Below, piece after piece: positions 1 through 14,988 of a stretch of 22,855 bases of DNA (within the stretch, counting starts at the first letter, position 1; every line of letters starts with the position of its first letter). The position numbers were made by a program, and so were the translations under genes. This DNA comes from a virus, in IMG/VR virus record IMGVR_UViG_3300046804_003253, positions 1 through 22,855 of that record, one strand, 5' to 3'. The notes under the pieces were generated by a model. The model worked only from the letters and a program-made list of their open reading frames with translations. It did no database searches and was not told the origin of the DNA.

Positions 1-924
1 GCAGTAGATCGTATGCTCGCTGAACAACTAAGTGCTGAATTAGTTGAATTTGCAGATGACCGTCGCCAACTTGCTGAGATGAAAGTCAAATACGCAAGAG
101 CGATGAAACAAAATGCAGGTTTAATGAATGAATTTGTCAAGCGACAATTAGTAGCTGAGGTTCGTGAATTACACGAAGATCAAGTTACAATGGCTAATAA
201 ATTTGGTAAATTAGAAGAATTCGTCGTAGAAGCTCTAGCTCAAGAAATTACAGAGTTTTTCAAAGACAAACAGGATTTAGCAGAAACAAAAGTTCGCTTG
301 ATCCGTGAAGGCCGTAAAGAAATACAAAAAGTTAAAGAAGCATTTGTTCAACGTGCCGCTAAAATGGTTGAAAGTGTTGTGGATACGAACCTACGTTCTG
401 AAATCACATCACTCAAAGAAGACATTGAAGCAGCTCGTAGAGCAGATTTTGGTCGTAAATTATTCGAGGCTTTTGCTGCCGAATATCAGACCAGCTACTT
501 AAACGAAAAATCAGAAACTGCAAAATTACTCAAGGTCATAGACATGAAAGATTTAGCAATTCAAGAAGCAGCGAAAGCTGTTGTGAAAGCTGAACAAATC
601 TTAGAAAGTAAACAAGCAGAAATCGTTGATTTAAAAGAATCTCAAACCCGTAAAGAAATTATGGGTGAATTGCTTGCTCCTCTAAACAAAGAGCAACGCG
701 AGATTATGAGTGAATTAATGGAAAGTGTGAAGACTACTAAATTAAACGAAAGTTTTGACAAGTATCTTCCAGCAGTCTTAAATGGCAAAACACAGCAGAA
801 GAAACAGGCACTAGTAGAGGCAAAAGAAGTTACAGGAAATAAGCAAATTTCCAACACCAACCGTAGCAGTGAGGAAGATACAAATATCGTAGATATACGT
901 AAACTCGCTGGACTAAAAATTTAA
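1..924 (+). CDS. 22: Prohead core scaffolding protein (gp22-like), 5' partial
   Basis: Internal scaffold on which the capsid shell assembles; in T4 it is degraded by the prohead protease before packaging. The frame is open from base 1 (codons for A-V-D-R precede the first ATG at 13), so the true start probably lies upstream and this entry is partial. The visible 303 residues from ATG 13 are almost entirely charged coiled-coil helix (rich in K, E, A, L), as expected for a core protein. Two related segments repeat about 69 residues apart: around residues 6-25 and 75-94, each reading roughly A-x-E-(L/I)-x-E-F-x-D-(R/K)-x-x-LAE-x-KV. The C-terminus ends in a basic, leucine-rich IRKLAGLKI. The gene lies 12 bp ahead of gp23, the T4 gene order 22-23. 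Identification rests on position, composition and remembered similarity to T4-like prohead core proteins. T4 gp22 itself is about 270 residues. Confidence 0.85.
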   Translation, partial: AVDRMLAEQLSAELVEFADDRRQLAEMKVKYARAMKQNAGLMNEFVKRQLVAEVRELHEDQVTMANKFGKLEEFVVEALAQEITEFFKDKQDLAETKVRLIREGRKEIQKVKEAFVQRAAKMVESVVDTNLRSEITSLKEDIEAARRADFGRKLFEAFAAEYQTSYLNEKSETAKLLKVIDMKDLAIQEAAKAVVKAEQILESKQAEIVDLKESQTRKEIMGELLAPLNKEQREIMSELMESVKTTKLNESFDKYLPAVLNGKTQQKKQALVEAKEVTGNKQISNTNRSSEEDTNIVDIRKLAGLKI

Positions 925-936
925 GGAGAAATTTAA

Positions 937-2133
937 ATGTCAGAACTACTCACAGGACGTTGGGCAGAAACTAAAGAAGCCCTATTAGAAGGCTTACAAG
1001 GCACAAAGAAATCAGTAATGGGAGTTACACTTGAGAATACTCGTAAGTATCTTATTGAATCCCCAACTGCTGGTGCTACTTCTGCCGGCAACGTTGCAAC
1101 ATTAAATCGCGTGATCCTTCCAGTGATCCGTCGCGTTATGCCAACCGTTATCGCTAACGAATTAGTCGGTGTACAACCAATGACTGGCCCAGTCGGTCAA
1201 ATCCACACATTACGTGTACGTTATGCAGACACATCATCAAATGCTGGCGTATTAGCAGGTGAAGAGGCATTAAGCCCATTCAAAATTGCTAGTAGCTATT
1301 CTGGTAATGCAGCAGGCGATAGCGGTATTGGTGGTGGTGGCCCAGCTAAGGCAGCTTCAACAGCTACCCTAGAAGGACAAGCTGGTAACAGATTAAGCAT
1401 CCAAATCCTCAAGCAAACTGTCGAGGCTAAGACTCGTAAGTTAAGTGCTCGTTGGACATTTGAAGCTGCTCAAGACGCACAAGCTCAACAAGGTATTGAC
1501 GTCGAAGCAGAAGTAATGGCTGCTTTAGCTCAAGAAATCACAGCTGAAATCGACCAAGAAATTATCGCTAGTTTAACAAGTTTAGCTGGTACAGCTACAC
1601 AAACTTATGACCAAGCTGCCGTTTCAGGTACAGCTACATTCGTTGGTGACGAACACGCTGCTTTAGCTGTTCAAATCAACCGTGTAAGTAACTTGATCGC
1701 TCAGCGTACACGTCGTGGCGCAGGTAACTATGCAGTGGTAAGTCCATTTGCATTGACAATCCTACAAAGTGCTACAACAAGTGCGTTTGCTCGTACAACA
1801 GAAGGTACATTAGAAGCTCCTACAAACACCAAGTTTGTTGGTACATTGAATAATGCAATGAAAGTGTATGTAAACAGCTACGCACAAGATACAGCTTCTG
1901 TGCTAATTGGTTACAAAGGTGGTTCAGAGTCTGATGCACCTGCATTCTATTGCCCATACATTCCATTGATGAGCAGTGGTGTTGTTCTAGATCCATCAAC
2001 ATTTGAACCAGTCGTATCATTCATGACACGTTATGGTTATGTTGAACTAAGCAATACAGCAAGCTCATTAGGTAATGCCGCTGACTACTTAGGTTTAGTT
2101 GCTATCACAGCTTCTAACGTTAAGTTTAGCTAA
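937..2133 (+). CDS. 23: Major capsid protein gp23
   Basis: Main shell protein of the T4-type head. The 398 residues show the family's conserved N-terminal third (residues about 53-105), including NRVILPVIRRVMP, the ANELVGVQPMTGPVG block and LRVRYA. It is clearly shorter than T4 gp23 (521 residues) and suggests a divergent aquatic T4-like group. T4 gp23 loses an N-terminal propeptide through the prohead protease at an (L/I)-x-E site. Here L39-I40-E41 followed by S42 fits that motif, so a mature protein starting at S42 is inferred. A glycine-rich stretch (residues about 130-140, GIGGGGP) looks like a surface loop. An AAGGAG ribosome site (923-928) sits 8 bases before the ATG. It is co-transcribed with the scaffold gene and followed by a strong terminator. 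Confidence 0.96.
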   Translation: MSELLTGRWAETKEALLEGLQGTKKSVMGVTLENTRKYLIESPTAGATSAGNVATLNRVILPVIRRVMPTVIANELVGVQPMTGPVGQIHTLRVRYADTSSNAGVLAGEEALSPFKIASSYSGNAAGDSGIGGGGPAKAASTATLEGQAGNRLSIQILKQTVEAKTRKLSARWTFEAAQDAQAQQGIDVEAEVMAALAQEITAEIDQEIIASLTSLAGTATQTYDQAAVSGTATFVGDEHAALAVQINRVSNLIAQRTRRGAGNYAVVSPFALTILQSATTSAFARTTEGTLEAPTNTKFVGTLNNAMKVYVNSYAQDTASVLIGYKGGSESDAPAFYCPYIPLMSSGVVLDPSTFEPVVSFMTRYGYVELSNTASSLGNAADYLGLVAITASNVKFS

Positions 2134-2288: not shown

Positions 2289-3371
2289 ATGGGAAGACCC
2301 CTCAGTCGCCAGCAATTGTTTGGCGCCAATGCAAATAATAACATTAAAGTACAATTTCACAACGGTACTGCTAGTGTCAAAGGTTATATTGTAGAACAAA
2401 CAGGATCTAAGAGATTCAAATGTAAAGATGCAGACGGCAACACCGCAGTTTGTTATCTAGTAGATAAAGCTAGTGCGGCATTATCTGCAGGAGAAATGAC
2501 TATCACATTTAAGTATGATGATGGTACAGTTCAACAAGCTGTTAAAATTACACGTCATCGTATTAGTGTAATTTATGATGGAATACTACAAAGTTTTCCA
2601 TGGAACTTTAGCACAAGCACATCAGACGGCTACTGGCAAGTTGAAGAAGCTGGTACTAATGCCGCTATGGCAAGTGCTACTGATTTAGAAGGCGACGATA
2701 TTAATGGAGATTATCCAGTTCCAGGATCTGGCGATACACCTTATAAATTAGGCGCCACAGGCTTGTCAGGCATTACTTACGCAAACATTGGCACACCATA
2801 TAATCCAGGTGGCAACGTTGCTACAGTATCTAACTCTGCTTCAGGATTGTGGAGAACCAAATATGACGGCAACTTTTCTGCCGCAAGTAACTCACTTCCA
2901 GCAACATGGAATTATAGTTTCTTTGGAACAGCAACAGCAATCAAATCTATTGCAGATACCTATGTAAGTTGGGGACAACAAACCGACGGTTCTGGTTTAG
3001 GTGAGCATAACTTTAGTATGGAATGGAAAGGTTATATCCAAGTTCCAACAACACAGAACTACAACTTCTATGCTGAATCAGACGACCACATCGCAATGTG
3101 GATTGGCTCGGCCGCAACAGCAACTCCAACAAACGCATCACGTTTGTTAGGTAACAATAACAAAAATATGCCAAGCGATGCAGCCACAGCTGGCGTATAC
3201 GGTGCTAACTCAGTAACACTAACAGCAGGTCAGTGGTACCCAGTTAGAGTTTGGTTTAGTGAACATACAGGTGGATGTAAAGCACAAATTTATGCACACG
3301 GTGCAAATGGCGCTAAGTTCTCAGGTAGTGAATTAACACTTGCTTATAATACAGCAACAGGCGGTTATTAA
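2289..3371 (+). CDS. Accessory virion protein with C-terminal PA14-like domain
   Basis: A 360-residue protein of beta-rich, Asn/Thr/Gly-rich composition typical of virion surface or decoration proteins. It begins MGRPLSRQQLFG, an N-terminus shared in part with the next gene. Residues about 33-95 form a small module (Q-TGSKRFK-DG-V-YLVD-GEM-KITRH) that recurs at the end of the next protein. Residues about 220-355 look like a PA14 domain, a beta-sandwich often linked to carbohydrate binding: a W-x-G-Y-I strand, then YNFYAESDDHIAMWIG and a final strand WYPVRVWFSE. I infer a surface-exposed structural protein, perhaps sugar-binding. It follows a late promoter and terminator and is first in a three-gene unit. 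No T4 homologue was recognised. Confidence 0.7.
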   Translation: MGRPLSRQQLFGANANNNIKVQFHNGTASVKGYIVEQTGSKRFKCKDADGNTAVCYLVDKASAALSAGEMTITFKYDDGTVQQAVKITRHRISVIYDGILQSFPWNFSTSTSDGYWQVEEAGTNAAMASATDLEGDDINGDYPVPGSGDTPYKLGATGLSGITYANIGTPYNPGGNVATVSNSASGLWRTKYDGNFSAASNSLPATWNYSFFGTATAIKSIADTYVSWGQQTDGSGLGEHNFSMEWKGYIQVPTTQNYNFYAESDDHIAMWIGSAATATPTNASRLLGNNNKNMPSDAATAGVYGANSVTLTAGQWYPVRVWFSEHTGGCKAQIYAHGANGAKFSGSELTLAYNTATGGY

Positions 3372-4412: not shown

Positions 4413-4760
4413 ATGTCAAAAATTTTAAAAGTCAGTAACGGTAACTATAAATTGCAAGTCCAGTCTGGCGGCCAGATTGTTTTTGATGCAGGAAATGATG
4501 GTACAGTTTCAATTCTAAGCACTAAACAATCTGGAACTAAGGTAACTGGAGCATTAGTAGTTGCAGGCGGAGTTGGTATCGGCGGCAATATAACTATGGA
4601 TAAAATTTTAACTTTATCCTTGTCAACTAGCGAACCAATTAATCCTGAAGTAGGTATGTTTGCTATTGCAGATCGTACTAATTGGAATCCTGCAAGTAAA
4701 CTAACAACATCACCGTATCCTGTGTTTTATGACGGATTGACCTGGCAAGCCTTATATTAA
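4413..4760 (+). CDS. Small fibre-like structural protein
   Basis: A 115-residue beta-rich protein. Residues 45-60 read TGALVVAGGVGIGGNI, a glycine/valine repeat common in phage tail-fibre and other virion proteins. The C-terminus (residues 105-114) ends FYDGLTWQAL, the same YDG-x-x-W pattern found in the neck, sheath-stabiliser and sheath proteins of this phage. An AAGG ribosome site (4403-4406) precedes the ATG. It is the last gene of the rightward unit, and its stop codon overlaps the end of the converging Nudix gene by 9 bp. It may be a small fibre or attachment subunit; this is inference. Confidence 0.6.
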   Translation: MSKILKVSNGNYKLQVQSGGQIVFDAGNDGTVSILSTKQSGTKVTGALVVAGGVGIGGNITMDKILTLSLSTSEPINPEVGMFAIADRTNWNPASKLTTSPYPVFYDGLTWQALY

Positions 4761-5201
4761 AGATAATAAACTAAAAATTGTTTGTAACTTTGTTCTAATA
4801 ATTTTGCTAGAAAAACTATTTCGAAGCCCCTGATGAAGGGGCTTTGGTGTTTTATCAATAGTAGACCATGCCCAGCCGCAATGCTCGTCACTTAGAATTG
4901 GAAGGAACTCATCTTGTACAACACACAAGTATGTGTGAAAATTAAATACTTTATCGTTGCTAACAAAAGTTTCTATTGGGATTGTTTTTAAAATAACTGG
5001 ATTAAATCCTATCTCTTCTGTTATTTCTCTTTGCAGACTTTGCCACGGTGTTTCATCAGGGTTAGCAGTTCCGCCTACTAGGCTCCATGTGCCATTATGT
5101 TTACCGTGATGTTTTTGTAGCAGTAAAATTCTACCTGTATTCAAAGAATAGAATAAAGCACCACTACATATAATTTGTTCTTTTACAATACTAGTCTCCA
5201 T
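4752..5201 (-). CDS. Nudix hydrolase
   Basis: A 149-residue protein with a complete Nudix box, G-x5-E-x7-RE-U-x-EE-x-G-U, at residues 44-66: G44, E50, R58-E59, E62-E63 and G65 are all present. The glutamates bind the divalent metal that drives hydrolysis of a nucleoside diphosphate linked to another group. The substrate cannot be read from the sequence; nucleotide sugars, dinucleotides or oxidised nucleotides are all possible. The W...LH-x-GL tail is usual for the family. It is the last gene after gp14-gp15 on the minus strand. Its ATG overlaps the gp15 end by 19 bp with only a weak ribosome site, so translation is probably coupled. Its 3' end overlaps the converging gene by 9 bp, and a terminator-like hairpin is embedded in its coding sequence. 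A metabolic enzyme inside a late structural unit is unusual. Confidence 0.92.
   Translation of the reverse strand: METSIVKEQIICSGALFYSLNTGRILLLQKHHGKHNGTWSLVGGTANPDETPWQSLQREITEEIGFNPVILKTIPIETFVSNDKVFNFHTYLCVVQDEFLPILSDEHCGWAWSTIDKTPKPLHQGLRNSFSSKIIRTKLQTIFSLLSLI
4824..4844. terminator. Candidate terminator hairpin inside the Nudix gene
   Basis: A perfect 7-bp stem, AAGCCCC (4824-4830) with GGGGCTT (4838-4844), has a 7-base loop. On the plus strand it is followed by TGGTGTTTTA, a weak T tract. On the minus strand a run of five T lies about 9 bases beyond it. It lies 63 bp past the stop of the last rightward gene and probably ends that unit, yet it also encodes the family-typical KPLHQGL segment of the Nudix protein. 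Confidence 0.55.
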
Positions 5202-6682
5202 TGTCCCGGCCCATATTCACCTTCAAAGCTCTTCATCCACTGAACACCGTTCCAGAGGTATTGAATTCCTGTGTATATATTTGTTTGCCAGATCATCTGC
5301 TCTCGATGTTGGCTAGCGTTAAAAATTACATTCCACCTAGTACCATCCCATTCAATTATATCATTAGCCTTAGCAATCAAATCACTATTATCTAATCCTT
5401 TCCAAGCATCGGCACCGTCACCGTTTTGTTCTGATCCAATATCTTCAATAACCAAATATCTTCTACCTGCTTGTAAAACACCGTATTGATTATATAATTT
5501 AGAGTCGCTTGGGCCTGTTTGTGTTGGATCTATTATAGCATCAAACGTGCCTGGACTATTAGATCTATAATTAGACCCTAAATTATAATTTATATGATTG
5601 AGTTCTAAAATTACTCCTTCAGAATTTATAGAATAGTTACCAACTAAAGTATCAGCATCATAATTGATGTGCAAAATATAAGGGTCAACTGCATCGATAG
5701 CAATAGTACCAACTATACTTGTTCCATTAGGTTGTTGCAAATACATCATGCTTGATCCTGCAATATATTTGTTAGGATATTGTTCAAATAACTCATCCCA
5801 TTTAATTTGAGACTCATAAGAATCTGGAATATCAGTAATTAACGTATTATTTGTAACAGGTTGTTGACTAGATAATAAATGTACTTGGGAGTTATGTACA
5901 ACAATTTTAGCATTTAAAATGCTTGTATTAATTTCGGCTAATTTTTCAGCAAATTCTATTGTAGGTTCTCCAGCCGGATCCGATCCTAAGCCGTCAATAT
6001 ATCCAATTGGATTAGAAGTCGATCCTTTATATATAGATGATATTATATTTGTAATAACTCCTAAATGTTTAACTTTTACAGGAGGACTTATCCAAACTGG
6101 AGTTTCAAAAGTTAAAGTAGCTAGATCAATAGGGGTATCGTTACCAACTGGAACGTTTTTGCTCGACCAATTTACAGCAGTTAAATCTAGTACTGTTAAA
6201 CTGGTCCAATCTATATAATTGTCAGTTGTTTGTAATTCAAGGCTAGGATTAAACAGCACTAAAATTTGTTCTAACACTTGCAATTTTTGATCAGTATTAG
6301 CAGTCCAAATATCTGCCTTCATAGTTAGCTTAAACGGTGTTGGCATTAACCTTTCTACAGTATAGTTTTTACCTTGATTTGTAGTATAGGTTGTACCATT
6401 AATATCTCTTTCTCTAAAATGTTTTCTATCTACGTAAGTGGCATCGCTTAATCGATTTTTATCTAGCTCAAGACCGGTTATGTAAACTGCAATTCTTGGA
6501 ACTGCATTAATTTTATTTTCTGAATTTTCTCTTATAATGCTAGCGGCTTGTCGGTCCGGATCACCGTACAAGACCGGAACTCTAACCAAAGTTCCGTCAC
6601 CATATTTTACAGCAAAATTGCTTAACACACGAATAGTTTGTGTAATATATCGTCTAATTTGTCCGTCATAAAACCACTGCAT
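5183..6682 (-). CDS. 15: Tail sheath stabiliser / tail completion protein gp15, extended
   Basis: gp15 caps the sheath and tube and joins the tail to the neck. Residues 1 to about 215 follow T4 gp15: the opening FYDGQIRRYITQTIRVLSN parallels T4 YFYNSSFRRYATLMGDLFSN, then come RVPVLYG, a PTPFKLTMKADIWT segment (T4 PSPIKMIYELSIFT), a V-x-EQIL-x-x-F-P block and a final PPV strand. T4 gp15 is 272 residues. This protein has 499, so about 280 residues are an extension. The extension ends in Trp-rich motifs: WDGTRW (445-450), WNGVQW (477-482) and GQW near the end. The start codon shares its A with the gp14 stop (TAATG), so translation is coupled. Middle gene of the minus-strand unit gp14-gp15-Nudix. 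Confidence 0.88.
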   Translation of the reverse strand: MQWFYDGQIRRYITQTIRVLSNFAVKYGDGTLVRVPVLYGDPDRQAASIIRENSENKINAVPRIAVYITGLELDKNRLSDATYVDRKHFRERDINGTTYTTNQGKNYTVERLMPTPFKLTMKADIWTANTDQKLQVLEQILVLFNPSLELQTTDNYIDWTSLTVLDLTAVNWSSKNVPVGNDTPIDLATLTFETPVWISPPVKVKHLGVITNIISSIYKGSTSNPIGYIDGLGSDPAGEPTIEFAEKLAEINTSILNAKIVVHNSQVHLLSSQQPVTNNTLITDIPDSYESQIKWDELFEQYPNKYIAGSSMMYLQQPNGTSIVGTIAIDAVDPYILHINYDADTLVGNYSINSEGVILELNHINYNLGSNYRSNSPGTFDAIIDPTQTGPSDSKLYNQYGVLQAGRRYLVIEDIGSEQNGDGADAWKGLDNSDLIAKANDIIEWDGTRWNVIFNASQHREQMIWQTNIYTGIQYLWNGVQWMKSFEGEYGPGQWRLVL

Positions 6683-8133: not shown

Positions 8134-8922
8134 ATGATAGATAATCCTGCTTCAACTGATTCAAATTCTACCCAAGAAAGAAACAAAGTTTTTGACTATG
8201 TTAAAACTATGCTGGGCGACGGCATGATTGACGTAGAAGTAGACTTAAAGCATATTGAAACTGCTCTTGACCGTGCTCTTAACAGATTTCGTCAACGAAG
8301 CCCCAATGCTGTTGAAGAAAGTTATCTATTTTTAGAACTATTGCAGGATGTAAACGAGTATAGGCTACCTGACGAAGTTATTGAAGTTCGTCAAGTATTC
8401 CGTAGAGCTATCGGCTCACGTACAGGTATGGGTGCAGGGGGAACATTGTTCGAACCATTCAATTTGGCCTACACAAACACTTACTTAATGAGCGGTAGTA
8501 TGATGGGCGGGTTAGCAACCTATGATTTATTTGCAGGATATCAAAAACTAGTAGGACGAATGTTTGGTAGTTATATTGAATTTAAGTGGAAGCCTACTAG
8601 CCATTTATTAACAATTCTACAACGCCCTTTTGCCCAAGGCGAACAAATATTAGTCCAGTCATATAATTTTAGACCTGATTGGGTTTTATTACAAGATACT
8701 TACGCAAAACAATGGTTGCGTGATTACACCTTAGCTATAACTAAGAAAATACTGGGCGAAGCCAGAAGTAAATTTAGCACAATAGCAGGTCCTACCGGTG
8801 GCGGCATGCAATTGAACGGTGCTGCCTTAAAACAAGAAGCCGATAAAGAAATAGAACTTTTAGACAAAGAACTAGAAACGTTAGTAGCAGGCGGAACTGG
8901 CTACACATTTGTAATTGGTTAA
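8134..8922 (+). CDS. 13: Neck protein gp13
   Basis: Head-completion/neck protein that partners gp14 at the portal. The 262 residues align in my memory along their length with marine T4-like gp13. Markers are a GDGMIDVEVD start of the fold, LDRALNRFRQRSPNAVEES, LPDEVIEVRQVFRR, GGTLFEPFNLAYTNTY, LFAGYQKLVGRMFG, LGEARSKFSTIAGPTGGG, and a C-terminal GTGYTFVIG. It has a GAGG ribosome site 8 bases upstream and its own late promoter. It runs opposite to gp14-gp15. Transcription may continue into the dNMP kinase gene 57 bp downstream, as no terminator is visible between them. Confidence 0.92.
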   Translation: MIDNPASTDSNSTQERNKVFDYVKTMLGDGMIDVEVDLKHIETALDRALNRFRQRSPNAVEESYLFLELLQDVNEYRLPDEVIEVRQVFRRAIGSRTGMGAGGTLFEPFNLAYTNTYLMSGSMMGGLATYDLFAGYQKLVGRMFGSYIEFKWKPTSHLLTILQRPFAQGEQILVQSYNFRPDWVLLQDTYAKQWLRDYTLAITKKILGEARSKFSTIAGPTGGGMQLNGAALKQEADKEIELLDKELETLVAGGTGYTFVIG

Positions 8923-10036: not shown

Positions 10037-13000
10037 ATGGCTCAACTTAATTCACCAGGTGTAAGTGTTACCGTTGTAGACGAAAGTTTTTACACACCGG
10101 CTGCGCCAGGCACAGTACCATTAATTATTGTAGCATCACAAGAAAATAAACAAAATGCTGCTGGTACAGGTACAGCACCAGGTACCTTAAAAGCAAATGC
10201 TGGTAAAGTGTATTTGCTAACAAGTCAATTAGATTTAGGCACTGCATTTGGCATCCCATACTTCGAGACCGACGCTAGTAATAATCCAGTTAATGCTAGC
10301 GAGTTAAATGAATATGGTTTGCAAGCAGCCTATAGTTTTTTAGGCGTAAGCAATCGTGCTTATGTTGTACGTGCTGATCTAGATACAGCACAACTATTAC
10401 CTAGTGCAGATGCTCCTGCAGGCGATCCTGCAGACGGAACATATTGGTTAGATACAGCTGATACAGTATTTGGTGTTTTTCAATGGGATGCAGATTCAGC
10501 AGAAAGCGGCGGCCAAACATTTAGTGTTCAAGCTGTAACTGTAATTACTGATAAGAATCTGTTAAGTAACCCTAATGATCTAACATCGATCCCTGCATCA
10601 AGTTTTGGTGCATTGGGTGATTATGCAATTGTTGCAACAACAAATTTAAACAAACTATACCTTAAAAAATTCCAAACAAACACTGCGGCTGGAACATGGG
10701 TAGAAGTTGGTTCTACAGCATGGGCAGCAAGTTGGCCAACAGCTATGGGAACTATTGCATCACCAAGCAGTATTCAAGCTACAGATACATTATCTATTAA
10801 TGGTAATGCAGTAACAATGACAGGTGTATCAAGCCTTAGTGCTTTAGTTACTGCTATTAATGCAACTACCGCTGTTACTGGATTAGGTATACATGCTTCT
10901 AGTGTTAATGATGTTTTAAATTTATATTCAACTGGTGTAGCTATTACCACATCAGGTTCTGTACTAGTAAAAGTAGGTATAGCCGCAGGAGAGTTTTTAG
11001 CACCTGCGTTGCAAATTAGTCCACACACTCAAATACCTTTATTCAAAGCAACAGACCATCCATTATCACAAAATGGTAATGCTTCAGGTAGTATATGGAT
11101 TAAAACTACAACAGTAAATCAGGGCGCACATTGGTTTATTAAAAAATACAATGCCGCTACAAGTAGCTGGGTTACTCAAAGTACACAATTATTTTCCACC
11201 CCAGAATCTGCATTGGCAACATTAGATACAACCGGTGGTGGCATTAACCTTGCGGCAGGCGCAGTTTACGTAAAATATAATGACGATGAAGGCACACCTA
11301 CAGAAGCATCATTTAAAGCATATTATCGCGCAAATGTTGGACCAACAAAGGTTACAACTGTGCCAATTGGTAGCAGTACACTTACAGCAGGTACAAATAC
11401 GTTTACATTAGCAGAAAGTGTAGTAGGCTCAGCTAATCCAAATGCTCCTACAACAATAACATTTACAGCGGCTGGTAATCAATCAGATGCTTCAACACTA
11501 GCATCAGCTTTGACAGCAGCTCTATCTAATTCAAAAGTTAGTGCTACATTAAATAGCAATAAGACAATTACATTAAGTCATAATGCTGGCGGAGAAATAA
11601 GATTTGTCGACGGCACTAATTCTCCATTGGCAGCTCTTTTTGCTGGATCTCCGGCAAATATCTATCCAGCACCTAGTGGTGTATCAGGTTCTTATGTAGC
11701 TAGTAATTGGTCACCAACAGTTGTTGATGATTTAGGTAATACAGTTGGCTTTGCAGTAGCAAGTGCAACAGCACCGGTAACAGATCCCGCAGATGGTCGT
11801 CTATGGTACAATTCAATGATTGACGAAATAGACATTATGATTCATGATGGTACAACATGGAAGGGATACCACAACGGCGGCATACCTGCATTAAATGGCC
11901 CTGCTCTCGATCCTAACGGCCCTATTGTAAGTGCAACAGAACCAAAATCTCAAAGTGACGGATCCGCCTTAGCAAATGGTGATTTGTGGATTGATACAAG
12001 CGATTTAGAAAACTTTCCAATGATTAATAGATATAATTATGCTACTAAAAAATGGGAAACTATTAATAATGCAGATCAAACAACAGAGAATGGTGTAGTG
12101 TTTCATGATGCACGTTGGAGCTCAGATGGGGCAGACTCAACACCTGCATCTATCCAGTCTCTATTAACTAGTAACTACTTAGATCCAGATGCTCCAGATC
12201 CTGCGTTATACCCAAAAGGTATCCTTTTATGGAATTTACGTCGCAGCGGATTTAATGTTAAAAAGTATGTAAGAAATTATATTGATACTAATGATCTAAA
12301 TCACAGGTCAGGAAACGAATTAATGTCTGGATATTTCCCTGATCGTTGGGTAAGTGAGGCAGCTAACCAACTAGATGGTTCAGGAAGTTTTGGACGTAAA
12401 GCTCAACGTGAAGTAGTACTAACAGCGTTAAACGCTCTAATTGGAAGTAATCAAGAAATTAGACAACCAGATTCAAGGGTATTTAATTTACTATCTTGCC
12501 CTGGATATTTAGAAACATTAAAACCATTAATTGGATTAAACACAGACAACGGACTAAGTGCATTTATCGTATCTGATAGCCCAGCTAGATTAACACCAGA
12601 TGCCACTACACTAAACAACTGGGGCAACAACGTTAACAAGGCAGCGGTAGACGGAGAGCAAGGCTTAATTTCTACAGATCCATATGCGGCAGTTTATTAT
12701 CCATGGGGTTACACAACAGATTTATTAGGTAACAACATTGTTGTTCCTCCAAGCCATATGATGCTACGCACAATTGCGTTAAGTGATAATGTAAGTTATC
12801 CATGGTTTGCACCAGCAGGTACACGCCGAGGCGGTATTACAAATGCAAGCTCTACAGGGTATGTAGATGGTATGACTGGCGAATTTACAACTGTTTCTTT
12901 AAATGTAGGACAAAGAGATACATTAGCTGATGTGCATGTTAACCCTATTACATACATCACCGGAACAGGTTTAGTTTGCTACGGTCAAAAAACACGCCAA

Positions 13001-13342
13001 CTTTCAGCAAGTAGTTTAGATCGTATCAACGTTGCCCGCTTAGTAATTTATCTACGTAGACAACTTGACATATTGGCAAAACCATATGTGTTTGAACCAA
13101 ATGACACAATTACAAGAAATGAAATTAAACACCAAGTAGAAAGTTTACTCTTAGAACTAGTTGGCCAACGTGCATTGTATGATTACTTAGTAGTATGTGA
13201 TACAAGTAATAATACTCCTGCAAGAATTGATCGTAACGAACTACACGTTGACATAGCTATTGAACCAGTAAAAGCAGTGGAATTTATTTACATTCCATTA
13301 CGTTTGAAAAACACTGGGGAAATTAAGGGTCTTGGAGCCTAA
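10037..13342 (+). CDS. 18: Contractile tail sheath protein gp18, greatly enlarged
   Basis: The sheath subunit that contracts to drive the tube through the cell envelope. The N-terminus (MAQLNSPGVSVTVVDES, LDLGTAFG) and the C-terminal 420 residues (GQRDTLADVHVNPI, INVARLVIYLRRQLD, an FEPND helix, LHVDIAIEPVKAVEFI) are family features. The length is 1101 residues against 659 in T4. The extra sequence, roughly residues 125-680, appears to be inserted after the N-terminal sheath region. It holds four repeated small modules with a (D)G-x-(Y/L/I)-W core at W137, W354, W590 and W651, typically followed by a (D/Y)-x-x-T-x-x-W strand. Between them, residues about 249-310 (DTLSINGNAVT ... ALVTAINATT ... 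DVLNLYSTG) resemble a flagellin hook-IN motif. The insertion probably decorates the outside of the sheath. First gene of the gp18-gp19 unit. Confidence 0.93.
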   Translation: MAQLNSPGVSVTVVDESFYTPAAPGTVPLIIVASQENKQNAAGTGTAPGTLKANAGKVYLLTSQLDLGTAFGIPYFETDASNNPVNASELNEYGLQAAYSFLGVSNRAYVVRADLDTAQLLPSADAPAGDPADGTYWLDTADTVFGVFQWDADSAESGGQTFSVQAVTVITDKNLLSNPNDLTSIPASSFGALGDYAIVATTNLNKLYLKKFQTNTAAGTWVEVGSTAWAASWPTAMGTIASPSSIQATDTLSINGNAVTMTGVSSLSALVTAINATTAVTGLGIHASSVNDVLNLYSTGVAITTSGSVLVKVGIAAGEFLAPALQISPHTQIPLFKATDHPLSQNGNASGSIWIKTTTVNQGAHWFIKKYNAATSSWVTQSTQLFSTPESALATLDTTGGGINLAAGAVYVKYNDDEGTPTEASFKAYYRANVGPTKVTTVPIGSSTLTAGTNTFTLAESVVGSANPNAPTTITFTAAGNQSDASTLASALTAALSNSKVSATLNSNKTITLSHNAGGEIRFVDGTNSPLAALFAGSPANIYPAPSGVSGSYVASNWSPTVVDDLGNTVGFAVASATAPVTDPADGRLWYNSMIDEIDIMIHDGTTWKGYHNGGIPALNGPALDPNGPIVSATEPKSQSDGSALANGDLWIDTSDLENFPMINRYNYATKKWETINNADQTTENGVVFHDARWSSDGADSTPASIQSLLTSNYLDPDAPDPALYPKGILLWNLRRSGFNVKKYVRNYIDTNDLNHRSGNELMSGYFPDRWVSEAANQLDGSGSFGRKAQREVVLTALNALIGSNQEIRQPDSRVFNLLSCPGYLETLKPLIGLNTDNGLSAFIVSDSPARLTPDATTLNNWGNNVNKAAVDGEQGLISTDPYAAVYYPWGYTTDLLGNNIVVPPSHMMLRTIALSDNVSYPWFAPAGTRRGGITNASSTGYVDGMTGEFTTVSLNVGQRDTLADVHVNPITYITGTGLVCYGQKTRQLSASSLDRINVARLVIYLRRQLDILAKPYVFEPNDTITRNEIKHQVESLLLELVGQRALYDYLVVCDTSNNTPARIDRNELHVDIAIEPVKAVEFIYIPLRLKNTGEIKGLGA

Positions 13343-13354
13343 TAGGAGAAAAAG

Positions 13355-13987
13355 ATGGCAATAGCAGCATTATCAAATTTTACAGTACCCTTAGCTAGCG
13401 ACCAAAGTTCAGCTACTCAAGGCCTGTTGATGCCAAAACTTCAATATAGATTTAGAATATCTTTTGAAGGGTTAGGCGGCTCAAAAGGGCAAAACACAGT
13501 TGAATTAACTAAACAAGTTACAGAGGCAGCAAGACCTACGCTTGAATATGAAGACCAAACAATCGACATTTACAATAGCAGAATTCACTATGCAGGCAAA
13601 TACAAATGGAGTCCAATAACAATAAAATTACGTGACGATGTTAATGGTTATGTAAGCAAATTAATTGGATTACAAAACCAAAGACAATTTGATTTTTATG
13701 AACAAAGTTCTGCGGCCAGTGCAGGTGAATATAAATTTACTATGCGAGTTGAAATGCTAGACGGCGGTAATGGCGCTCATAGTCCTAACGTTTTAGAAAC
13801 TTGGGAATGTTTGGGTTGCTATATTCAAAAAACTACGTATGGTAGTCTAGCCTATAAAAATAACGAAGTTGTTACAATAGAATTAAGCATAGTTTTTGAC
13901 AATGCTGTACAAACAGGCACTACAGCAGGTTTAGGAATTCAAGGTACTGATCAAACAAGAGGCGGAACAAAAACAACAGGCGGCTAA
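13355..13987 (+). CDS. 19: Tail tube protein gp19
   Basis: The subunit of the inner tail tube around which the sheath is built. The 210 residues contain a PKLQYRFRISFEGL opening strand, an LEYEDQTIDIYNSRIHYAGKY segment, WSPITIKLRDDV and a C-terminal NNEVVTIELSIVFDNAV strand, all typical of T4-like tube proteins. T4 gp19 is 163 residues; the extra length is a polar Gly/Thr/Gln-rich tail (residues about 188-210) and internal loops. AGGAG (13344-13348) lies 6 bases before the ATG and 12 bp separate it from gp18, so the two are co-transcribed. A terminator begins at the stop codon. Confidence 0.93.
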   Translation: MAIAALSNFTVPLASDQSSATQGLLMPKLQYRFRISFEGLGGSKGQNTVELTKQVTEAARPTLEYEDQTIDIYNSRIHYAGKYKWSPITIKLRDDVNGYVSKLIGLQNQRQFDFYEQSSAASAGEYKFTMRVEMLDGGNGAHSPNVLETWECLGCYIQKTTYGSLAYKNNEVVTIELSIVFDNAVQTGTTAGLGIQGTDQTRGGTKTTGG

Positions 13988-14064: not shown

Positions 14065-14988
14065 ATGGCATTTACTACCTCATCATCTGAACAGAATAAC
14101 AGTCAAGAAATACTAAAAACATGGCAACATGCCAGTAGAGTATTTGTTGACGATCAGTTTAGGCTTGCACCTAAAGCTGATTTTATGTTTCATGTTGCTT
14201 TCAACATAAACGCTAATGCAGTCAAAGATAAAAAATTAATAGAAAGCCATAGAAACGAAATAAATTTATTAGTAAAATCTGCCACCATTCCAAAGTTTGA
14301 AATAGATGTAACAAAAGCTAATCAATATAATAGAAAAAAAATAATACAAACTAGCCACAAATATGAAAATGTAACTATTAAGTTCCATGATGATAATATG
14401 AGTATTATTAATCACCTATGGCAAAATTATTATTCTCATTACTACGCAGATTCTACTTCTGCTCAAAAACCAGGAGCCTACACAAGAAATGCAACAAAAA
14501 ATTATGATTATGTTGTGGCGCCTTATGGGTTAGATAAAGGTACCGTAATACCTTTTTTTAACTATATAACAATTTACCAAATGGCTAGGCACGAATGGAT
14601 TAGTGCTAAATTAATCAATCCGGTAATTACAACCTGGGACGGCAGCACCTTAGATTATACTTCAAATAAAACACATGAAAATAGTATAACATTAGCTTAT
14701 GAAGCAGTTGCATACGATACGGGAGATGTAGAAACCGGAAGTCCGGAAGGATTTGCAGTAGAGCATTACGATACTGCTCCAAGCCCGCTAACAGGACAAA
14801 TTAATCTTACTTCAGCAAGCCCAACATTTGTCAGCTCACAACAATCTAATACTTTATCAAATTTAGTTCAAAAAGTAACACAAGTAAATCAAGCACAAAA
14901 TACTCAAAATTTATCTTCTACTACTAATCCAGTTTCTAATCAAAATTCTAATGGTAGTTTGCAAGGCTATAGTTTTCCAGGTACTTAA
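14065..14988 (+). CDS. Tube-fold-like tail protein (possible gp48/gp54-type or gp19-related)
   Basis: A 307-residue protein. The layout is that of tail tube proteins: an N-terminal strand ADFMFHVAFNI, then LLVKSATIPKFEIDV, a YNRKKIIQTSHKYENVTI strand with FHDD, a helix (NHLWQNYYSHYY) and a C-terminal strand ENSITLAYEAVAYD. The last 65 residues are Gln/Asn/Ser-rich and likely disordered. In T4 the tube-fold proteins are gp19, gp48 (tube cap) and gp54 (tube initiator). Its place after gp19 fits any of these, and I cannot choose. Its ATG is 5 bases after a late promoter without a ribosome site. The next two genes follow within 1 or 2 bases of the preceding stop, so the three form a tight unit. 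Confidence 0.6.
   Translation: MAFTTSSSEQNNSQEILKTWQHASRVFVDDQFRLAPKADFMFHVAFNINANAVKDKKLIESHRNEINLLVKSATIPKFEIDVTKANQYNRKKIIQTSHKYENVTIKFHDDNMSIINHLWQNYYSHYYADSTSAQKPGAYTRNATKNYDYVVAPYGLDKGTVIPFFNYITIYQMARHEWISAKLINPVITTWDGSTLDYTSNKTHENSITLAYEAVAYDTGDVETGSPEGFAVEHYDTAPSPLTGQINLTSASPTFVSSQQSNTLSNLVQKVTQVNQAQNTQNLSSTTNPVSNQNSNGSLQGYSFPGT

Follow-up and report, generated by a model that had tools for sequence, protein, structure and literature searches.

A tail sheath enlarged by repeated tryptophan modules and probable flagellin/FliD-like domains in a lineage of T4-related jumbo phages

Why should a contractile phage tail be built from a sheath protein about two-thirds longer than that of T4, and of what does the added mass consist? 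This question is raised by a 22,855-base virus fragment (the window, i.e., the whole stretch of DNA analysed), in which an intact open reading frame (ORF) at 10037-13342 on the + strand encodes a tail sheath protein of 1101 residues, compared with 659 aa for T4 gp18 in the PDB set. A preliminary description, made from the letters of the sequence, had proposed an oversized gp18-type sheath, and this identification holds. The tail sheath profile phrog_10581 aligned with residues 1-1094 over profile positions 1-913 of 915 (E 7e-221), insert included, and the C-terminal sheath domain PF17482 (Phage_sheath_1C) scored 54.2 bits against a curated cut-off of 26.9. Because three independent contigs (L001, L002, and L003) carry the same ORF at 96-100% identity, the oversized ORF is not an assembly artefact. 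Surrounding the sheath gene are those for the major capsid protein (T4-type), the large terminase, the head closure protein, and the head-tail adaptor, as well as for a gp15-like sheath stabiliser, the tail tube, and a dNMP kinase; it adjoins tube and neck genes (tube, 13355-13987; Ad2/neck, 8134-8922; gp15-like, 5183-6682). In the relative PA5oct, the sheath was detected in virions by mass spectrometry (annotated as ESI-MS/MS), and that of CBB is listed among tail homologues (PMC5259590). The ORF at 10037-13342 encodes the contractile tail sheath of a jumbo phage related to T4, within the RaK2/Atu_ph07/PA5oct lineage, and its main parts, together with the adjoining tube gene, are as follows.

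10037..13342, + strand: tail sheath protein (gp18-type), 1101 aa, stop included (phrog_10581, Phage_sheath_1C, AF2 model)
10037..10387, + strand: N-terminal half of the conserved sheath core, residues 1-117 (115-121 aa in 91/91 relatives)
10388..12394, + strand: insert, a modular rigid body, residues 118-786 (187-875 aa in relatives; folds alone in the model)
12395..13342, + strand: C-terminal half of the sheath core, residues 787-1101 (301-327 aa in 91/91 relatives)
13355..13987, + strand: tail tube protein, directly downstream of the sheath (phrog_4542, E 1.3e-48)

Several other genes of the window deserve mention in their own right. The tube gene at 13355-13987 is followed by a second tail-tube-like gene in tandem (14065-14988; 307 aa), whose match to that tube family is weaker (E 4e-13) and whose C-terminal part includes a Q/N-rich stretch. 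A protein with PA14 and GLEYA domains, lacking a PHROG match, is encoded right behind the major capsid gene (2289-3371) and is a possible capsid-surface adhesin or decoration. The gp15-like stabiliser (5183-6682, - strand; 499 aa) seems enlarged too, since its T4-gp15 domain spans residues 4-222 only. Beside it lies a NUDIX-like ORF (4752-5201, - strand), and the identical NUDIX-gp15 pairing occurs in phage CBB (CBB_232, CBB_233).

Alignment of 91 full-length relatives (603-1306 aa) separated a nearly constant core of about 430 residues, comprising an N-terminal part of 115-121 aa and a C-terminal part of 301-327 aa, from an insert of 187-875 aa that splits the two halves. The very large insert of the preliminary description is therefore present in our protein, although it extends over residues ~118-786 (669 aa) instead of 125-680. 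AlphaFold2 (AF2) modelled the full protein with high confidence (91 relatives; pLDDT 92.2, pTM 0.79), and the insert alone was predicted even more confidently as a rigid body (63 relatives; pLDDT 95.3, pTM 0.87), so that the structure prediction called for earlier yields a sheath core split by a rigid insert. Structural comparison of the modelled core with solved sheaths gave Z 35.8-36.8 for the extended KP1 sheath (359-361 residues aligned, spanning 21..1101) and Z 32.4 for the R-pyocin sheath, the matches to solved sheaths spanning 21..1101 with about 345-360 residues aligned; in the model, the two-part core is shown to have the contractile sheath fold. The related viral sheath ctWb16 in BFVD matched the whole protein (TM 0.78/0.83). 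Against seven T4-like gp18 relatives, the core aligned in hhalign with 100% probability over the C-terminal 231 columns, whereas the insert gave 0.2% (E 0.33) against their inserted domains, i.e., no detectable relation. The possibility that the insert is merely an ordinary T4-like sheath domain, named beforehand as the finding that would overturn the idea of an unusual insert, is rejected on this comparison of sequences.

What the insert is made of became apparent from its tryptophan-containing modules, which are listed below with the strands of the AF2 model.

10415..10531, + strand: W module M1, residues ~127-165, W137 (strands 136-139, 147-152, 160-164; homologous to M3 and M4)
10592..10708, + strand: degenerate module M1', residues ~186-224, closing W221 (strands 196-199, 204-210, 221-223)
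11066..11182, + strand: W module M2, residues ~344-382, W354 and W378 (strands 353-356, 368-372, 377-381; M4 match 96%)
11246..11356, + strand: degenerate module M2', residues ~404-440, with Y at the W position (strands 410-414, 425-431, 437-440)
11774..11872, + strand: W module M3, residues ~580-612, W590 and W608 (strands 589-592, 600-603, 608-610; M1 match 97%)
11942..12067, + strand: W module M4, residues ~636-677, W651 and W673 (strands 650-653, 662-667, 672-675)
12194..12361, + strand: possible seventh module M5, residues ~720-775, after which the chain returns to the core (strands 730-733, 740-745, 770-773)

Each W module is modelled as a three-stranded beta meander with a Trp on strand 1 and usually another on strand 3. 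Profile-profile comparison over the 91 relatives linked M1 to M3 (97%), M2 to M4 (96%), and M1 to M4 (84-86%), with weaker pairings for M2 or M4 with M2' (61-70% each) and for M3 with M4 (25-52%); control windows from the core gave about 0, except for one spurious pairing of M1' with a core window (29-39%). The insert holds six GxxW motifs (G at 134, 351, 363, 587, 605, and 648), where shuffling would predict 1.36 (P 0.0012), and this excess, together with the profile-profile homology, rules out a chance origin of the motifs. The W modules are genuine homologous repeats. The four G-x-x-W modules recognised at the outset, at W137, W354, W590, and W651, are accordingly real, and the count rises to six with the degenerate M1' and M2', plus the possible M5. 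M1', whose profile match to M4 is weak (8-17%), is counted as a module mainly on structural grounds, and M5 is tentatively taken as a seventh repeat on its strand pattern; its W771 is kept in 90/91 relatives, and profile-profile comparison gave no match between it and the other modules. As modelled, the six W modules and the possible seventh form the constant skeleton of the insert. W137, W590, and W651 are kept in 90/91 relatives and W354 in 85/91, and judged by this conservation the Trp positions look like fold-defining rather than glycan-contact residues. Searches of the other ORFs of the 22,855-nt stretch gave no convincing W-module match; elsewhere, weak matches occurred in phrog_34255, from other phage families (best E 1.8e-5, 10/37 members), and in a virion protein region of PA5oct (E 0.007). 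No PDB sequence relatives were found for modules M3-M4, Foldseek of the insert against the PDB returned nothing at E 0.001 or better, and VIA found no PDB chain at Z >=5 over the W-module part; since VIA only re-ranks the list from Foldseek, this missing match is not proof of a novel fold. Comparison with Ig folds brought up Fab chains only (Z 2.0-2.4).

In the loops of this W-module skeleton sit two further domains, which the preliminary description had overlooked.

10769..11026, + strand: IN1, probable flagellin/FliD-like domain, residues ~245-330 (Flagellin_IN sub-cut-off; flagellin 2zbi, Z 7.5 over 88 residues)
11390..11671, + strand: IN2, probable flagellin/FliD-like domain, residues ~452-545 (FliD 6iwy, Z 7.7, 99 residues, rmsd 2.5)

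IN1 and IN2 are mutually related (77-81%, profile-profile). Their fold matches (Z 7.7, 7.6, and 7.5; rmsd 2.5-2.9; 88-99 residues) were nearly all flagellin or FliD in the top rows, and for IN2 phage tail chains followed behind, including the phiTE contracted tail (451-residue chain of 9cba; Z 6.6) and the T7 tail (Z 4.7). IN1 and IN2 are probably flagellin/FliD D2-D3-like domains; the assignment stays short of proof because all matches lie at Z <8, a level that is not decisive and can reflect a merely common arrangement. The Pfam family Flagellin_IN scored 18.7 bits for IN1 and 11.0 bits for IN2, both below its cut-off of 22.7. Profile searches of the insert, proposed along with the original idea, thus separated it from T4-like inserts and left both Flagellin_IN and every carbohydrate-binding family below cut-off. 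Weak-E PDB sequence matches of the insert to designed TIM barrels and a hydrolase were rejected as spurious, as they overlap the helix-strand pattern of IN2. Taken together, the modelled core, W-module body, and two IN domains give this sheath the minimum of three domains expected of the type 3 multi-domain class.

The oversized sheath is not a peculiarity of one phage, because the insert is found throughout the RaK2/Atu_ph07/PA5oct lineage (phrog_10581), which includes phages of E. coli, Pseudomonas, Agrobacterium, and Cronobacter. Named relatives have sheaths of 1086 aa (Atu_ph07), 1091 (Phosso), 879 (PA5oct), 887 (121Q), 883 (GAP32), 955 (SCTP-2), and 990 (Vibrio phage 2.275), and many further relatives came from four scans of viral contigs. 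Of 90 relatives, 89-90 have the W blocks, 48 have IN1, and 59 have IN2; the presence of IN domains was scored by alignment occupancy, so that misalignment could disturb these counts. On a tree built from core columns only, the minimum number of changes was at least eight for IN1, at least six for IN2, and at least five for lengths >1180 aa, compared with one each for M1 and M4. This single loss of M1 and M4 belongs to L114 (603 aa; L114:304-2112; one contig only), whose core is 45-48% identical and whose 187-aa insert consists of a wholly different repeat known from baseplate wedge, fibre, and head-closure families. These alignments indicate that the W skeleton was retained while flagellin/FliD-like domains were repeatedly gained or lost across the lineage. 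Among close pairs, dN/dS rose from the core (0.007 and 0.038 for its two halves) through the W blocks (0.075-0.094) to IN2 (0.105) and IN1 (0.17), with no sign of diversifying selection across the insert blocks; the insert is constrained throughout, least in IN1. The sheath ORFs of L048, L054, and L069 (1244-1306 aa) carry additional repeats of the pattern GTxLxVxxVxxGxxxxGxxISGxxIxxGTxI, which enter the chain behind residue ~243 of the present protein.

How might such a sheath work? The core builds the contractile helix, an established role in this family, and would itself carry out contraction. By analogy with T4 and the other solved sheaths, the insert, which parts the two core halves, would lie away from the tail tube; every subunit would therefore expose it on the tail surface, and such outward projection is likely. 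The W modules would form a rigid arm and a packing surface touching neighbouring subunits, which would stabilise a long, heavy tail, and the IN domains, the most peripheral and exchangeable parts, may serve weak surface adhesion, shielding, or appendage anchoring. We therefore favour, as the probable reading, a sheath with a core of ~430 residues and a W-module insert outside the tail for packing and stability, carrying exchangeable IN surface domains. A bolder version is possible, though we hold it to be less likely than not: the sheath may act as an exchangeable display platform, in which a constant W arm receives plug-in domains of the flagellin/FliD type and other phage-virion repeats, swapped time and again between lineages. 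If this were true, the whole tail surface, beyond the fibres alone, would be retooled in evolution.

Other explanations were weighed against the packing and stability reading. The preliminary description had suggested host or glycan contact, and the repeated W modules could be glycan-binding units over the full length of the tail, in keeping with the weak carbohydrate contact proposed for many surface-exposed phage domains and discussed for sheath Ig-like domains (PMC9230969), and with the unusual tails of jumbo relatives such as CBB and 121Q. We consider this quite unlikely. The Trp residues are near-invariant (85-90/91) in phages whose hosts differ widely, the pattern a fold core would show, and no carbohydrate-binding family attained its cut-off (the CBM-like PF14683 reached 17.4-18.1 bits against 27), which makes Trp glycan binding the weaker reading; the W blocks are, moreover, under purifying selection, and the modules have no PDB sequence relative. 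Alternatively, separate proteins forming hairs or whiskers along the tail could be rooted in the insert. CBB has tail whiskers whose gene was not identified (PMC5259590), Atu_ph07 has whiskers, and hair-like fibres were reported for 121Q, all within this lineage. GAP32, however, has the same sheath family with no whiskers reported, the CBB authors sought whisker candidates among genes absent from GAP32 (PMC5259590), and the hairs of Atu_ph07 sit chiefly on the head, none of them directly linked to the sheath; an anchoring base is thus unlikely.

Finally, the insert could be the product of neutral growth, in which modules accrete in large genomes with no selected function. Insert length does range widely (187-875 aa), expansions beyond 1180 aa arose at least five times, and sheath size climbs with genome size (Evseev et al., 2022; PMC9230969). 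Such growth is nonetheless very unlikely to account for the insert, as dN/dS of 0.075-0.17 in every insert block indicates constraint and the W skeleton is almost completely retained across relatives. While multi-domain sheaths of jumbo phages are known, the present family offers a natural series in which inserts of 187-875 aa sit on one constant core. Because this series splits a retained skeleton from domains that come and go, the function of the added sheath mass can be tested by comparison, cryo-EM, and deletion.

Set beside known systems, the large insert is the normal design of a widespread giant-phage sheath family, and the present sheath is mostly ordinary because this family-wide design was already modelled in 2022 (PMC9230969). 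Among 112 sheaths, Evseev et al. modelled those of Atu_ph07 ('5+ domains'), RaK2, and SCTP-2 as multi-domain 'type 3', located the additional domains on the side remote from the tube, and suggested roles in adhesion, appendages, and stability (PMC9230969). In the open-access papers searched, an incomplete set, we did not find the W-module repeat relation, the flagellin-like identity of the IN domains, or the gain and loss counts. The closest named full-length relatives, those of Atu_ph07 (1086 aa) and Sinorhizobium phage Phosso (1091 aa), share 42-43% identity over aligned parts, with the same W modules and core; in these two a further IN-like stretch separates M1 from M1', and the alignment shows no IN2. 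The RaK2-like sheaths (121Q, GAP32, and CBB) and PA5oct have the core and the W137, W590, and W651 positions in common with the present sheath but shorter inserts (about 460 aa in 121Q) without IN1. Flagellin and FliD D2-D3 domains (Flagellin_IN) resemble IN1 and IN2 in fold (Z up to 7.7) and, weakly, IN1 in sequence, whereas the IN domains stay below the Pfam cut-off and are embedded in a sheath rather than a flagellar protein; IN-like folds were also matched in the phage tails of phiTE, T7, and P-SCSP1u. T4 gp18 and T4-like sheaths (Straboviridae, Kyanoviridae) have the same contractile core, with an insertion at the same position in the chain.
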